Positions 5,168 to 63,394 of a stretch of DNA of 64,000 nt are shown here, one piece after another. The stretch's first letter is position 1; each line of letters opens with the position of its first letter. The notes below the pieces were generated by a model. That model worked only from the letters and a program-made list of their open reading frames with translations. It searched no databases and was not told the origin of the DNA. The DNA comes from Nocardioidaceae bacterium (GTDB taxonomy: Bacteria > Actinomycetota > Actinomycetes > Propionibacteriales > Nocardioidaceae): positions 1 through 64,000 of the forward strand of contig JAURVT010000040.1 of assembly GCA_030655315.1 (NCBI GenBank), read 5' to 3'. Made by a program: the position numbers and the translations under genes.

Positions 5168-6063
5168 CGCCCCTGCTGCTCGGGGCGATCGGGTTGCTCC
5201 TGGCCCACCCCGTGCCCGCCGTGCTCGCGCGGGCCCGCTGGCCCTACCTCGCTCCGCGCGCCGGCATCGTGTTGTGGCAGTCGCTCGCCCTGGCGGCGGT
5301 GCTCGCCGTGCTCGGCGCGGGGCTCTCGACGGCGCTGTGGCTGGTCACCCCGCAGGACCCGTCACCGCTGCGCATCGCGGTGCACGTCGCCGTCATGGCG
5401 CTCACCGTCCTGGTGGGAGGACGGCTGGCGTGGTCGGTCGTCGACGTCGCCCGCGACACCCGGGCCCGTCGGCGCCGGCACCGGGCCCTGCTCGACCTGC
5501 TGGCCGGCGTCGACGAGAGCGAGCCCAGCCTGCGGATCCTGGCCGACGAGCTGCCGATGGCCTACTGCCTGCCGGGGGTCGGCGCGACCCGGGTCGTGGT
5601 GTCGGCCGGGGCGCTCGAGCGGCTCGACCCCGCCGAGGTCGACGCGGTGCTCGAGCACGAGCGGGCGCACGTCCGTGCGCGACACGACCTCGTGCTCGAG
5701 GGGTTCACCGCGCTCCACCGCGCGTTCCCGCGCGGACCCCGGGGCGACGCGCCGCTGCACCACAGCGAGGTGCTCGTCGAGCTGCTCGCCGACGACCGGG
5801 CCCGGCGTCGGTGCGGCGCGGTCCCGCTGGCCCGGGCGCTCGTCACGCTCGGCTCGGGCGCCGCGGCCCCACGGGGCGCGCTCGGGGCCGGATCGGCCGT
5901 GCAGGTCAGGCTCGAGCGGCTCGGCGACGACCCCGACGAGGCCCGCTCCGGACGACTCGCCGCCGCGGCCGTCGCCTATGCGGCGTCAGCCGTCGTCCTC
6001 GTCGCCCCCACCCTGTTCCTCGCCGTCCCGTGGATCAGCTCGGCCTGGCAGCGGCTGGCCTGA
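5164..6063 (+). CDS. M56-family membrane metalloprotease (BlaR1-like, no sensor domain)
   Basis: 299-residue integral membrane protein with about four hydrophobic helices and the zinc motif HERAH at residues 165-169 within VDAVLEHERAHVRARHD. M56 proteases cleave BlaI-type repressors to relieve repression. The extracellular penicillin-binding sensor domain of classical BlaR1 is absent: after the protease core only one more helix follows (AAAVAYAASAVVLVAPTLFLAVPW). What it senses is therefore unknown. Translationally coupled to blaI through an ATGA overlap. Confidence 0.88.
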   Translation: MTPLLLGAIGLLLAHPVPAVLARARWPYLAPRAGIVLWQSLALAAVLAVLGAGLSTALWLVTPQDPSPLRIAVHVAVMALTVLVGGRLAWSVVDVARDTRARRRRHRALLDLLAGVDESEPSLRILADELPMAYCLPGVGATRVVVSAGALERLDPAEVDAVLEHERAHVRARHDLVLEGFTALHRAFPRGPRGDAPLHHSEVLVELLADDRARRRCGAVPLARALVTLGSGAAAPRGALGAGSAVQVRLERLGDDPDEARSGRLAAAAVAYAASAVVLVAPTLFLAVPWISSAWQRLA

Positions 6064-6093
6064 GGTGCCGGGGCGGCGCCGCGGGGGCGACCA

Positions 6094-6148
6094 GACACCA
6101 CGTGAACGTGGTGTCCGGGCCGAAGCACGGTCGATCTACCGTGCTTCG
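6094..6148. terminator. Two tandem perfect hairpins between convergent genes
   Basis: Hairpin 1 has 10-base arms GACACCACGT (6094-6103) and ACGTGGTGTC (6106-6115). Hairpin 2 has 11-base arms CGAAGCACGGT (6121-6131) and ACCGTGCTTCG (6138-6148) with a six-base loop. They lie just after the M56 stop and before the end of the opposing small gene, so a bidirectional terminator is likely; there is no T run. About 30 bases on (6176-6189) is CGTCCTCGCTGCGC, a sequence also seen in the repeat block near 38 kb, followed by its own small dyad GCTGCGC/GCGCAGC. Confidence 0.55.
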
Positions 6149-6210
6149 ACACCTCTGCCGTGTTCGGGCTGCCCGCGTCCTCGCTGCGCTTCCACCCAGC
6201 GCAGCGAACC

Positions 6211-26276: not shown

Positions 26277-26350
26277 GGGTGGCTCCAGGGATGGCGCGGA
26301 CGTGGGGTCGTCTGGCCACCGGAGCCCTCACCCCTCGCGTCGAGTTCCGA

Positions 26351-26387
26351 CCCAGTTACCCCAAGACAGCACGGATGGGTGACTGGG
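26351..26387. promoter_or_regulatory. Imperfect inverted repeat between the DUF6412 and yidC genes
   Basis: CCCAGTTACCC (26351-26361) and GGGTGACTGGG (26377-26387) pair over 11 bases with one T-G wobble and a 15-base loop. It lies in the 165-base gap upstream of the yidC paralogue and after the DUF6412 stop. It may be an operator or an intercistronic stem; no binder is evident. Confidence 0.4.
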
Positions 26388-26441
26388 CCGGAAGTCGACG
26401 GCCGTGGTGGGTCGCTCTGGGGGACGCGCGCGGGTGCGGCG

Positions 26442-36251: not shown

Positions 36252-37149
36252 GACTCCCCCGCGCCTGCGCCACCTCGCCCCCCACGAGTGGCAGCCGCTG
36301 CGCGACGCCCACCGCGAGCGTGCGGAGCGCTGGACCCTCCCCCACCTCGAGCGGCGCAGCCGACGCGAGCCGCACCCCGTGCTCGACTTCGTCTTCGAGT
36401 ACTACCCCTACGAGCCGGCCAAGCTCGCCCGCTGGCACCCCGGCGTCGGCACGGCGCTGACCGGCGACGGCGCCGATGCGCTGCTGGCGCTCGCGGCCTA
36501 CCGCGCCGAGGGTGACGCCGTCACGGTCGACCTCTCCCGCCTGGAGCGACGCCGTGAGGGGCTCGTCTGGGCCCGCGACCTGATGGTCCGCACCGCGTCG
36601 CGCCCCGCCCGCACCGACTGCTTCGGCCTGCACGAGTGGGCGATGGTGCACGGCGCCGGCTCCGAGGGCCGCCGCCACTCGACGGTCCCGCTGCGGCTCG
36701 GGCAGGACGGCACCGACGCGGTCACCGAGGCGCACCAGGTGCGCTGCACCCACGTCGACGCGTTCCGCTTCTTCACCGACTCCGGCCGCCCGCTCAACAG
36801 CCTGCAGCCGACACGCGAGACGCAGCCGGCGATGGAGCAGCCGGGCTGCCTGCACGCCAACATGGACCTCTACCGGTTCGCCGCGAAGCTCTCGCCGTTC
36901 GGCGACTCCGCGCTGCTGCTCGACACCTTCGAGCTGGCGGTCGAGATCCGCGAGGCCGACATGCGCGCCTCGCCCTACGACCTCACCGCGTGGGGCTACG
37001 AGCCGGTGCGGATCGAGACCCCCGAGGGCAAGGCGGAGTACGTCCGCCGCCAGCGCGACTTCGCCACCCGGGCGGCGGTGCTGCGGGCGCGGCTCGTCGC
37101 CGACCACGACCGCGTCCTGACCGCCGACGAGAGCACGGAGACCCGATGA
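36241..37149 (+). CDS. Actinobacterial protein annotated as 3-methyladenine DNA glycosylase
   Basis: 302 residues from GTG 36241. Pattern PHEWQPLRDAHRERAERWTLPHLERRSRREPHPVLDFVFEYYPYEPAKLARWHPG, DCFGLHEWAMVHG, CTHVDAFRFFTDSGRPLNSLQPTRETQPAMEQPGCLHANMDLYRFAAKLSP and DMRASPYDLTAWGYEPVRIET match a family carried in databases under this name; no helix-hairpin-helix is visible, so the enzymatic label is weak. The unusual density of conserved His/Asp/Cys suggests a metal-dependent enzyme. Overlaps zur by 11 bases, so probably zinc-controlled with it. Confidence 0.75.
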   Translation: MRTETPPRLRHLAPHEWQPLRDAHRERAERWTLPHLERRSRREPHPVLDFVFEYYPYEPAKLARWHPGVGTALTGDGADALLALAAYRAEGDAVTVDLSRLERRREGLVWARDLMVRTASRPARTDCFGLHEWAMVHGAGSEGRRHSTVPLRLGQDGTDAVTEAHQVRCTHVDAFRFFTDSGRPLNSLQPTRETQPAMEQPGCLHANMDLYRFAAKLSPFGDSALLLDTFELAVEIREADMRASPYDLTAWGYEPVRIETPEGKAEYVRRQRDFATRAAVLRARLVADHDRVLTADESTETR

Positions 37150-37736
37150 GCCGCACCACCTGGACCACCACGGCGACGCTGGCGGCGGTGGCCCTGCTCG
37201 CGGGCTGCGGGTCGTCCGGCGGCGACGCCGTCGACGTCCCGACGACGGGACGCGCGCTCACCGCCGCGGTGATCGACGACATCGGCAACGAGCCCACCGC
37301 GGCCGGCCCGTCCGAGGAGGTCGGCGACCTCGGTGGCGACGCAGTCGGCGCCGACGTGCGGTTCGGTCGGGGCGCCCGGCCCTACACCGTCTCCACGGTG
37401 GTCGCGCCGGCCGACGCCGCGCCGGACGACCAGTGCGTCGCGGGCTCCGACGGGTGCGACACCGTCGCGCTCACCGACGGCGGCCGCGCCACGATGTCGT
37501 GGAGCCTGCTCGACCCCGACGAGGACCCGGGCAGCGTCACCCTCTCGACGGTTCGCGGCGACTCCTACGTCCTCGTCCGCTACCGCGGCACCGCGCTGCG
37601 CCAGGACCCCCGCAACGCCGGCGCCATGCCGGTCGACTTCACCGCGCTGGTCGACGTGCTCGACGACCCCACGGTCGGCGTGCTCACCACCCAGCGCCGT
37701 GTCGACCAGGGCGACAACCTCAGCCTCTGGGGCTGA
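37146..37736 (+). CDS. Putative lipoprotein at the end of the znu operon
   Basis: 196 residues, ATG 37146 overlapping the previous stop (ATGAG). Signal peptide TTATLAAVALLAGCGSSGGD with lipobox LLAGC. Mature part is acidic with a Cys pair (DDQCVAGSDGCD) and beta-rich pattern. Not recognised. Its position hints at a role under zinc limitation, but nothing in the sequence binds metal obviously. Confidence 0.8.
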   Translation: MSRTTWTTTATLAAVALLAGCGSSGGDAVDVPTTGRALTAAVIDDIGNEPTAAGPSEEVGDLGGDAVGADVRFGRGARPYTVSTVVAPADAAPDDQCVAGSDGCDTVALTDGGRATMSWSLLDPDEDPGSVTLSTVRGDSYVLVRYRGTALRQDPRNAGAMPVDFTALVDVLDDPTVGVLTTQRRVDQGDNLSLWG

Positions 37737-37880
37737 GCTGCGGCCCCTCGGTCTGACGGGCTTCTCTGGCCGGCCGACCCCGTTCGACCTGGGGTCTCAG
37801 GCGGGACCGTCTGTTGTTCCCGGCTGGGAAGTGCGCAGCGAGGACGGCGGCGGCGGCCGTCACCTAGGTGTGCGGGCTGT

Positions 37881-38080
37881 CGTCTCGGTCTGCGAGACGG
37901 ACTGCCTGCTGGCGCGGGCTGACCGTGGCAAACGGCGCGAAACACGGCATATTCACCACGGTCAGCACCTGTTTGCCTGAGTCGGTGTGACCTGTGGGGT
38001 GGACGGGATCAGCCGTCTCACCCACCGAGACCACAGGCGGGACGTGCACCCGACCTACGGCCGCAGCCCGCGCCGTCCTC
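37881..38080. repeat. Repeat A, copy 1
   Basis: 200 bases, identical at about 85% to copy 2 with no gaps; copies are 573 bases apart. Bounded by two small stems conserved in both copies: CGTCTCG/CGAGACG (37881-37899) and GTCTC/GAGAC (38015-38031). Inside, GCTGACCGTGG (37918-37928) pairs with CCACGGTCAGC (37956-37966) in this copy only. On the minus strand a frame reads GKQVLTVVNMPCFA and FATVSPR in both copies. Confidence 0.9.
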
Positions 38081-38453
38081 GCTGCGCACTTCCGCCCGCC
38101 ACCGCGACGGGTGCGCCCGGGCGCGGTCGCTCGTGCTCGGGTGGCCGGCGCCGCTGCAGGCCGGGGCTCAGCCCGGACCGTCCCCTGCCTACGGCTGGGA
38201 CGTGCGCAGCGAGGACGGCGGCGGCGGCCGTCACCTGCGCGGTACGGCCACCCAACCTCGACCGCTGCCCACGCCGTCCTCGCTGCGCACTTCCGCCCAC
38301 CACCGCGACGGGTGCGCCCGGGCGCGGTCGGTCGTGCTCGGGTGTCCGGCTCCGCTGCCAGTCGGGGCTCAGCCCGGACCGTCCCCAGCTCGAGGCTGGG
38401 AAGTGCGCAGCGAGGACGGCGGCGGCGGCCGTCACCTGCGAGGTGTGGGCCGC

Positions 38454-38653
38454 CGTCTCGGTCTGCGAGACGGACCGCGTCAGCGCGCGGACTGACCGTG
38501 GCAAACAGCGCGAAGCACGGCATATTCACCACGGTAAGCACTTGTTTGCCTGGGTCGGTGTGACGGACGGGACTGACGGGATTCGTCGTCTCACCCACCG
38601 AGACTCGAAGACGGACGTGCACCCGACCTACGGCCGCCGCCCACGCCGTCCTC
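38454..38653. repeat. Repeat A, copy 2
   Basis: Second copy of the 200-base element. Differences to copy 1 cluster in three patches (38476-38484, 38565-38573, 38605-38612) with nearly unchanged blocks between. Two changes break pairs of the inner stem seen in copy 1, so that stem is not under conservation here. Confidence 0.9.
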
Positions 38654-38705
38654 GCTGCGCCCTTTCACCCACCACCGCGAAGGCAGCGCCCGGCGGGAGC
38701 GGCTC

Positions 38706-40313
38706 TCAGCCCAGACCGGCGGGCGCCACGGAGTGCTTCCTCAGGCCGTAGGTCACGGCGTCGAGGAGCGCCTCCCAGGAGGCCTCGACGATGTTGTGGC
38801 CGACGCCGACGGTGACCCAGGAGTCGACGCCGTCCGTGGTCTGGATGAGCACCCGGATGACGGCGTCGGTGCCCTGGCCCTGGTCGAGGATGCGGACCCG
38901 GTAGTCGATCAGGCGGAAGCTGCTGATCGCGGGCCAGGCCTGCTCGATCGCCTGGCGGAGCGCGTGGTCGAGCGCGTTCACCGGGCCGTTGCCCTCGCCG
39001 ACGACGACCAGCCGCCGTCCACCCGCACGCAGCTTGACCGTCGCCTCCGACAGCGCCTCCTCGCCGGGCACACCGCCGGACTCGGTGATCACGCGCCACG
39101 ACTCGACGTCGAAGAACGCCGGCCGGCCGCCCTCGAGCTCCTCGGCGAGGAGCAGCTCGAACGAGGCGTCCGCCGCCTCGAAGGTGTAGCCCGCCTGCTC
39201 CATCGTCTTCACGCGGTCGGTGACGCGCGACAGGCGTGCGCCGTCGCCGCTGAGGTCGTAGCCCAGCTCCTTGCCCTTGAGCTCGATCGTGGCGCGACCG
39301 GCCATCTCGGAGACAAGGAGCCGCATGTCGTTGCCGACGCGCTCGGGGTCGACGTGCTGGTACAGGTCGGGGTCGACGCGGATGGCGCTGGCGTGCAGAC
39401 CGGCCTTGTGCGCGAACGCCGAGACGCCGGTGTACGGCTGCCGCGCGACGGGCGGGTAGTTGGTGGTCTCGGCGATCGCGTGCGCGATGCGGCTCGCCTC
39501 GCGCAGGGCGCCCGCGGGCAGCACCGGCCGTCCGAGCTTGAGCTCGAGGTTCGCCACGACGCTGATCAGGTCGGCGTTGCCGGTGCGCTCGCCGTAGCCG
39601 TTGATGCAGCCCTGGACGTGCGAGGCGCCCGCCTCGACGGCGGCGATGCTGTTGGCGACCGCGCAGCCGGTGTCGTTGTGGGCGTGGATGCCGAGACGGG
39701 CACCCGTGCTCGCGGCGACGTCCTCGACGATCTCACCGACCCACCGCGGCAGCATGCCGCCGTTGGTGTCGCACAGCACGACCACGTCCGCCCCGGCGTC
39801 GGCCGCGGTGCGGACCACCTCGAGCGCGTAGTCGCGGTTGGCGCGGAAGCCGTCGAAGAAGTGCTCGCAGTCGAGGAACACCCGTTGGCCGCTCGCCCGC
39901 AGGTGCGTGACCGTGTCGCGGACCATCGCGAGGTTCTCCTCGAGCGTGGTGCGCAGGGCCAGCTCGACGTGCCGGTCGTGGCTCTTGGCGACCAGCGTGA
40001 CCACACCGGCGCCGGAGTCGCGGAGCGCCGCCACCTGGGGGTCGTCGGCCGCCACGGCGCCCGCCCGACGGGTGGCGCCGAAGGCCGCCAGCGTCGCGTG
40101 CTCGAGGGCGAGCTCGGTACGGGCGCGGGCGAAGAACTCGGTGTCCTTGGGGTTCGAGCCCGGCCACCCGCCCTCGATGAAGCCGACGCCGAGCTCGTCG
40201 AGGTCCCGCGAGATGCGCAGCTTGTCGATCACCGAGAGGTTGAGGCCCTCCTGCTGCGCGCCGTCACGCAGGGTGGTGTCGTACACGTGGAAGTCGTCGG
40301 CCGGTGCGTTCAC
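38706..40313 (-). CDS. cimA: (R)-citramalate synthase
   Basis: 535 residues of the DRE-TIM/LeuA superfamily; condenses pyruvate and acetyl-CoA for a threonine-independent route to isoleucine. DFHVYDTTLRDGAQQEGLNLSV is the catalytic RD motif, FIEGGWPGSNPKD is CimA-type, IHAHNDTGCAVANSIAAVEAGASHVQGCINGYGERTGNADL the metal His and Gly-rich segment, and the C-terminus is the LeuA allosteric dimer domain. GTG 40313 with GAGGA upstream is chosen over the longer frame from 40346, which would run through the attenuator poly-U. Confidence 0.92.
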   Translation of the reverse strand: MNAPADDFHVYDTTLRDGAQQEGLNLSVIDKLRISRDLDELGVGFIEGGWPGSNPKDTEFFARARTELALEHATLAAFGATRRAGAVAADDPQVAALRDSGAGVVTLVAKSHDRHVELALRTTLEENLAMVRDTVTHLRASGQRVFLDCEHFFDGFRANRDYALEVVRTAADAGADVVVLCDTNGGMLPRWVGEIVEDVAASTGARLGIHAHNDTGCAVANSIAAVEAGASHVQGCINGYGERTGNADLISVVANLELKLGRPVLPAGALREASRIAHAIAETTNYPPVARQPYTGVSAFAHKAGLHASAIRVDPDLYQHVDPERVGNDMRLLVSEMAGRATIELKGKELGYDLSGDGARLSRVTDRVKTMEQAGYTFEAADASFELLLAEELEGGRPAFFDVESWRVITESGGVPGEEALSEATVKLRAGGRRLVVVGEGNGPVNALDHALRQAIEQAWPAISSFRLIDYRVRILDQGQGTDAVIRVLIQTTDGVDSWVTVGVGHNIVEASWEALLDAVTYGLRKHSVAPAGLG

Positions 40314-48823: not shown

Positions 48824-48833
48824 GCGGGAGACA

Positions 48834-48875
48834 CCGACCCCGGAGCGACGGACCGCCGGGGTCGGAGCGACGGAT
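48834..48875. repeat. 22-bp-period GCGACGGAT repeat and hairpin, first locus
   Basis: Between convergent MocR and tenA genes. GCGACGGAC (48845-48853) and GCGACGGAT (48867-48875) are 22 bases apart. A perfect 10-base inverted repeat CCGACCCCGG/CCGGGGTCGG (48834-48843, 48856-48865) surrounds the first unit and may terminate transcription in both directions. Same repeat as at 63.3 kb. Confidence 0.7.
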
Positions 48876-48880
48876 CGGCG

Positions 48881-51011: not shown

Positions 51012-51810
51012 CGACCACGACGCGCAGGTGCGATGCGAGCGCGTCGGCGTCGATCGTCGAGAGCTCGTCGACGAGCATCCACCGCAGTGATCCGGGACCG
51101 TGCGCGCGGGCGCCGGCCCGTCCCCCGGCGGCCGCGAGGATGCCCAGCGCCGCCACGGTCGCCTCGAACGGGTCGGCCTCGACCGCGCAGAAGGCCCCGA
51201 CGAGGGCCGAGGCGGAGCACCCGAGCGCGGTGATCTGCGGCATCCGCGGGTCACCGCCGTGCACGTGCGCGACGCGTCGCCCGTCGGTGACGACGTCGAC
51301 CGCTCCGGTGACCGCGACGACCAAGCCCGTGCTGCGGGCGAGGTCGACGGCCACCGCGACGTCGCCGAGGTCGCCGTCGGCGTCGACGCCGCGACCGTGG
51401 GACTGCTGCGTCGCGATCGCGAGGACCTCGCTGGCGTTGCCGCGGACGACCGTGGGCCGGTGCTCCATCAGCGCGGCGACGGTCTCTCGCCGGTAGGCGG
51501 TGGCGCCGACGGCCACCGGGTCGAGCACCCAGGGGGTGCCGCGGTCGTGGGCGACGGACGCCGCGTCCGTCATCCCCTCCACCCACGGCGGCGACGGGGT
51601 GCCGATGTTCACCACGACGGCGGCGGCGAGGGCGGCGAACTCCCCCGCCTCGCGACGGTCGTGGACCATCGCCGGGGACGCCCCGGCAGCCAGCAGGACG
51701 TTGGCGGCGACGTCCATCGAGACGTAGTTGGTGAGGCACTGCACCAGGGGCGTGCGGGCACGCACCTCGGCATGGACCTGGCTCACGCGGTGGAGCGCGT
51801 CGGCGGACAT
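51001..51810 (-). CDS. thiM: Hydroxyethylthiazole kinase
   Basis: 269 residues. VQCLTNYVSMDVAANVLLAAGASPAMVHD, NIGTP, WVLDPVAVGATAYRRE, RGNASEVLAIA and MPQITALGCSASALVGAF are ThiM signatures; the catalytic Cys is in GCSASA. Salvages thiazole. ATG 51810 preceded by AAGGGAG and a TPP riboswitch. First gene of the operon. Confidence 0.94.
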   Translation of the reverse strand: MSADALHRVSQVHAEVRARTPLVQCLTNYVSMDVAANVLLAAGASPAMVHDRREAGEFAALAAAVVVNIGTPSPPWVEGMTDAASVAHDRGTPWVLDPVAVGATAYRRETVAALMEHRPTVVRGNASEVLAIATQQSHGRGVDADGDLGDVAVAVDLARSTGLVVAVTGAVDVVTDGRRVAHVHGGDPRMPQITALGCSASALVGAFCAVEADPFEATVAALGILAAAGGRAGARAHGPGSLRWMLVDELSTIDADALASHLRVVVDEA

Positions 51811-51819
51811 CGGGCTCCC

Positions 51820-51901
51820 TTCGCCGGAACGACCCGGATCAGGTTCGGCGGGTGTGATCTCAGCCCCCTCGGTAGGGGCACCCCGGCCTCGTGGTCCCGA
51901 G
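51820..51901 (-). ncRNA. TPP riboswitch (THI element)
   Basis: On the minus strand: GGGGTGCCCC, then GGGGCTGAGATCACACCC, then GAACCTGATCCGGGTCGTTCC. CTGAGA and the ACCTGATC box are the universal pyrimidine- and phosphate-binding parts of TPP riboswitches. It ends about ten bases before the thiM start, so it probably hides the ribosome site when TPP is bound. Confidence 0.95.
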
Positions 51902-63264: not shown

Positions 63265-63268
63265 CGCG

Positions 63269-63388
63269 ATCCGTCGCTCCCGCCCCACCCGTCCGGCGGT
63301 CCCGCCCTCACGTCGCTTGCGGGTCAGGGGCCGGCGCGACGGATGGCGGGGGCCGGAGCGACGGATCGCGGGGGTGGGAGCGACGGAT
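63269..63388. repeat. 22-bp-period GCGACGGAT repeat, second locus
   Basis: Three GCGACGGAT units at 63336, 63358 and 63380, exactly 22 bases apart, and an inverted ATCCGTCGC at 63269. Flanks read GGGGGTGG/GGGGCCGG. Lies between convergent mpaB and dehydrogenase genes, as the first locus does between mocR and tenA. Confidence 0.75.
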
Positions 63389-63394
63389 GGCGGA

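Follow-up and report, generated by a model that had tools for sequence, protein, structure and literature searches.

Large palindromic repeats at gene 3′ ends of a Nocardioidaceae genome: candidate bidirectional transcription-end elements

The repeats that fill a gap of nearly 1 kb between two convergent genes of a Nocardioidaceae bacterium appear to be REP/BIME-like large 3′-end hairpins, most likely bidirectional transcription-end elements that were locally amplified, a reading to which we give a probability of roughly 0.6. It is favoured by the position of the copies at 3′ ends, their symmetry and stability, and the palindromy kept among relatives. More tentatively, with the odds against so broad a statement, most convergent pairs in the Nocardioidaceae might be punctuated by a few amplifying, homogenised palindrome families that act as bidirectional transcription-end elements and are copied without a dedicated transposase. 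Such repeats may decide how head-on genes avoid collision.

Results

A three-unit array between convergent genes

The block was analysed within a stretch of 64,000 nucleotides (the window), for which an earlier note, made from the letters alone, had described a repeat block of about 1 kb between convergent genes. A codon-model gene caller trained on the Nocardioidaceae bacterium genome itself agreed, with positions 37737-38705 forming the whole gap between stops at 37736 (+) and 38706 (-) (Table 1). The top ungapped direct-repeat score of the block was 135, whereas none of 15 Markov shuffles scored above 11. The parts that had been described were recovered as well: the 201-base tandem unit as a 186-nt direct repeat spaced 201 bp apart (91% identity), the 200-base element without gaps as a 251-nt ungapped repeat at 37870/38443 (84% identity), the inverted ends as 35-nt arms (86-89% complementary), and the small stems bounding each copy as GTCTCGGTCTGCGAGAC and GTCTCACCCACCGAGAC flanking each core. 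The block had also rightly been set apart from CRISPR arrays, since its repeats are long palindromes that have diverged from one another and spacer C also recurs, and from insertion sequences and genes, since its ORFs have no Pfam match and were not called as genes.

Each complete element is a nested palindrome of ~270 bp, built of a 63-bp palindromic core, a mini-hairpin of 17 bp to each side of it and inverted arms B on the outside, and a spacer C of about 100 bp separates the units. The order within a unit is B (AAGTGCGCAGCGAGGACGGCGG...), mini-hairpin GTCTCG..CGAGAC, core (GACCGTGGCAAAC..CACGG..GTTTGCC..), mini-hairpin and iB. As assembled, the block has three tandem copies with a period of about 371 bp, the middle one without its ~170-bp centre, and alignment places degenerate C-like spacer upstream of the first B and downstream of the last iB. 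The B arms start at 37827, 38198 and 38399, i.e., at spacings of 371 and 201, and these spacings, together with a 371-bp period at a separate locus (contig C43), make three tandem copies followed by a loss of ~170 bp from the middle one the simplest history, in place of the nesting of one element in another that had been suggested. The array would thus have grown locally by tandem duplication, and an internal deletion would have removed the centre of the middle copy, core included. The sequence around both flanking stop codons (37730-37745 and 38700-38710; GGGGCTCAGCCC / GGGGCTGAGC) resembles spacer C, and these gene ends may therefore derive from the repeat or have been replaced by it. An assembly artefact might be suspected, the assembly being in 57 contigs and the site rich in repeats, but 9-16% divergence, with distinct single changes, separates the copies and the C43 locus shares the period, and we find this explanation scarcely credible.

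Table 1. Coordinates in the window of the repeat block, its parts, its flanking genes and a related core
Feature	Position	Strand	Basis or remark
Weaker related palindromic core	6104..6165	.	inside convergent gap 6064-6210; sister repeat family (ACCACGTGAACGTGGT...)
Left flanking gene	37146..37736	+	putative lipoprotein, without Pfam match; stop codon directly abuts block
Degenerate C-like spacer ahead of unit 1	37737..37826	.	alignment
Outer arm B, unit 1	37827..37861	+	repeat search; exact B motif
Mini-hairpin GTCTCGGTCTGCGAGAC, unit 1	37882..37898	+	
63-bp palindromic core, unit 1	37921..37983	+	covariance-model match E 7.8e-11; model R1 built including this copy
Mini-hairpin GTCTCACCCACCGAGAC, unit 1	38015..38031	+	
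Outer arm iB, unit 1	38063..38097	-	repeat search; B motif
Spacer C, first copy	38098..38197	+	also in contig C43 array
Arm B, unit 2	38198..38232	+	unit centre (~170 bp including core) deleted
Arm iB, unit 2	38260..38294	-	repeat search; B motif
Spacer C, second copy	38299..38398	+	repeat search, alignment
Outer arm B, unit 3	38399..38433	+	repeat search; B motif
Mini-hairpin GTCTCGGTCTGCGAGAC, unit 3	38455..38471	+	
63-bp palindromic core, unit 3	38494..38556	+	covariance-model match E 1e-11; model R1 built including this copy
Mini-hairpin GTCTCACCCACCGAGAC, unit 3	38588..38604	+	
Outer arm iB, unit 3	38636..38664	-	repeat search; B motif
Truncated C-like spacer reaching right gene's stop codon	38665..38705	+	
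Right flanking gene	38706..40313	-	HMGL-like/LeuA-dimer protein (citramalate or isopropylmalate synthase type)

Copies in the same genome and their siting at gene 3′ ends

Used as a BLAST query, the block gave 71 matches that cluster in about 18 further loci of its own genome, so the copy count that the earlier note had proposed shows that it is not single-copy. Arrays of two to four units are common (four on contig C9, three each on C43 and C19, two each on C27, C45, C55, C37 and C6), and the cores of the C43 array, at 5437, 5808 and 6179, repeat the period of the block. Unit geometry is near-fixed, B preceding the core by ~90-103 bp and iB following the core start by ~99-155 bp. Exact matches to the B motif number 21 across the genome, compared with 0-2 for the backwards-read pattern even when two mismatches are allowed. 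Searching the 1.3 Mb of the genome that was read with R1, a covariance model for the core, gave 35 loci, among them shorter relatives with a single hairpin; some E-values were weak.

These R1 loci are concentrated at gene 3′ ends, with 18 in convergent, 15 in tandem and 2 in divergent gaps, against 76, 329 and 164 such gaps of at least 60 bp in the 1.3 Mb (Fisher p 2e-8). Gaps of the same 1.3 Mb that share a repeat with another gap follow the same order, with 62/95 convergent, 62/400 tandem (from which the five gaps of repeat-cluster family 8, which are tRNA genes, should be discounted) and 9/177 divergent (p 1e-26), and several further palindrome families contribute to them besides the R1 family. 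Over the part of the genome that was read, 65% of convergent gaps thus contain repeated sequences, mostly palindromic, and one RNA 3′-end experiment could therefore cover many copies. The repeat is closer to the stop than to the start codon in 53 of the 62 tandem gaps, and in convergent gaps the median distance from repeat edge to stop codon is 2.5 bp. Samples of 400 kb gave convergent shares of 14/23 and 15/28 here and of 6/17 and 8/31 in two relatives from the family, with the repeats of one relative (G086) less clearly tied to convergent gaps, while an order-level outgroup gave 0/41, so the pipeline does not create repeats by itself. Position alone cannot separate function from purging, because any insertion would also be tolerated best at gene 3′ ends.

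Other features were seen in the window. A lone iB-like arm (CGTCCTCGCTGCGCTTCC) lies beside the sister-family palindrome in the gap 6064-6210, convergent gaps at 48824-48880 and 63265-63394 hold short repeats around GGAGCGACGGATCG that form a separate family, and a tandem gap at 26277-26441 holds a palindrome of the GTCGACTTCCGGCTCAGT family. A TPP riboswitch (Rfam RF00059, 61.8 bits) lies at 51799-51895 (-).

Folding and proposed function at 3′ ends

Unit 1 is predicted to fold as RNA almost end to end (-169.9 kcal/mol, z -7.9), and unit 3, folded as DNA, has a z of -6.7, with no shuffle equally stable in either case. Across an alignment of 32 core copies, 78.6% of cells pair at the true register, compared with 32-40% when the register is slid. 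The covariation score of the core is above all shuffles (0/500 reach it), while counts of double-sided changes are not, a shortfall that speaks against a 3′-end element, as do stems without a U-tract and the two loci between divergent genes. A terminator scan of the block sequence found no U-tract after the stems on either strand, and the sole terminator-like match in the block, at 37793, is not part of the element. A symmetric, stable hairpin does lie at the stop codons of the convergent genes, as in a bidirectional terminator. High-GC actinobacteria often lack classic U-tract terminators.

As the element is a near-symmetric palindrome, transcripts that enter it from the left or from the right would alike contain a very stable hairpin. 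Each copy would stop or end transcription of both convergent genes, and would protect or trim their mRNA 3′ ends. Because a U-tract is missing, the element would have to depend on Rho, clustered hairpins or 3′ processing; one published study reports that hairpin clusters can bring about intrinsic termination (PMC8355165).

The structured RNA suggested by the earlier note stands insofar as 3′-end position and folding favour a structured RNA or 3′-end element, while a discrete RNA gene fares poorly. If the block encoded a riboswitch-like RNA or a small gene for a structured RNA, a very stable fold such as the one predicted would be expected, but there is no Rfam family and no promoter-like site, the palindrome is symmetric without strand preference and the copies are placed by gene ends, leaving this a very improbable reading. 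The sole match in the Rfam search of the block was a chance miRNA.

Spread, turnover and mobility

The earlier note also considered a non-autonomous mobile element, and part of that idea holds: the copies are scattered through the genome, are specific to the species and end in inverted arms that keep a near-fixed distance from the core. A MITE-like transposon would use B as its terminal inverted repeat, be moved by a transposase acting in trans, and be seen at 3′ ends where its copies survived selection, and it would account for the dispersal, the geometry with inverted ends and a species-specific B. The rest of the evidence, however, runs the other way. Target-site duplication was found in 0/15 units; RAYT / Y1 transposase (PF01797) is absent from the genome, by a search that was positive in 5/14 control genomes; and strong B sites (0-1 mismatch) in the whole genome are almost all at known repeat loci, and within the 1.3 Mb that was read none of them frames a gene for a transposase, no transposon with matching ends being found there.

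One orthologous locus in another genus was informative about turnover. Two close sisters (3 kb at 95% and 89% identity) carry the element there, while in four further species alignment covers the flanking genes and not the gap (118-183 bp), judged from coordinates only, with the exception of the first 26 bp of the element, which align in one of the four. From these coordinates alone it looks like one sequence was replaced by another, not like insertion into an empty site, so the clean empty sites for which the note had called gave way, at this one locus, to replaced gaps of similar size, a further point against the MITE-like transposon, which we consider unlikely. Bidirectional 3′-end elements would instead have spread by a copying process leaving no target-site duplication, and spread without a REP transposase or such duplications raises the question of how such repeats copy themselves.

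Relatives across the family and order

R1 matches 59/250 genomes of the family, in 14/26 genera and often many times per genome, although weak matches in relatives need caution because the model derives from this genome's copies. Several or many matches occur in genomes of a second family of the order (17 in G288, 7 in G280), and single or double matches elsewhere. The relatives' sequences are nested palindromes, commonly near stop codons, with lineage-specific letters (GTTTACCACGG, GTTTCCCA, CTTCATCACGG), and the core relatives retain palindromy although those letters differ. Among the matches listed for 120 relatives there was no exact B site, and at most two sites per genome at up to one mismatch; since B is near-absent from these relatives, the large unit seems to have expanded at the level of this species, the B arm being species-specific. 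Among the matches listed for the 120 relatives, the right gene aligns as far as its 3′ end, and there is no alignment of the block or of the left gene. No match to the block was found in a phage collection. An exact 17-mer of the core gave 31 scattered matches in 84,980 genomes, mostly in unrelated phyla, which we took as chance. Another relative in the family (G101, L187-L206) carries many intergenic copies of a different palindromic repeat, GGTTTCGAGACGGTTGCTGCGCAACCTCCTCAACCACC.

These comparisons bear on whether the block is an array of binding sites, with half-sites GTTTGCCACGG / GACCGTGGCAAAC, for a chromosome-organising or nucleoid protein. Dyad-symmetric conserved half-sites do recur across the family, and arrays of two to four units would suit such a role, but the half-site letters vary by lineage while pairing stays, and the copies are dispersed, patchy among relatives (the 59/250 genomes above) and tied to gene 3′ ends. 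We consider it improbable, and the nucleoid or segregation site that had been proposed earlier is accordingly unlikely.

Comparison with known systems

The general kind of element is already known, as convergent bias has been published for stem-loops (PMC1590033) and REPs, the latter biased to convergent and 3′ positions (PMC3733652), while our literature searches found no published description of these palindrome families. The stem-loop families of 40 bacterial genomes (PMC2267715) are similarly repeated, intergenic and predicted to form stem-loops; that text does not name Nocardia or Nocardioides, and the block family is set apart from them on names, not on sequence. Bidirectional intrinsic terminators share the position between convergent stop codons and the strong symmetric hairpin, whereas the block family is sequence-conserved across many loci, without a U-tract and far larger. 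ERIC/RU and other MITEs share the 100-300 bp size class, inverted ends, and a non-coding, dispersed nature, but the block family has neither a target-site duplication nor a detected partner transposase, conserves an internal core and not just ends, and is tightly sited at stop codons. REP/BIME of enterobacteria and pseudomonads have units of 20-40 bp, compared with ~270 bp and a 63-bp core here, and the block family further differs in its three nested palindrome levels, its ~371-bp tandem period and the lack of a RAYT in the genome searched. It resembles them in being made of dispersed intergenic palindromes that build mosaic composites with a convergent and 3′ bias, and, like them, it is extragenic and biased away from divergent gaps.
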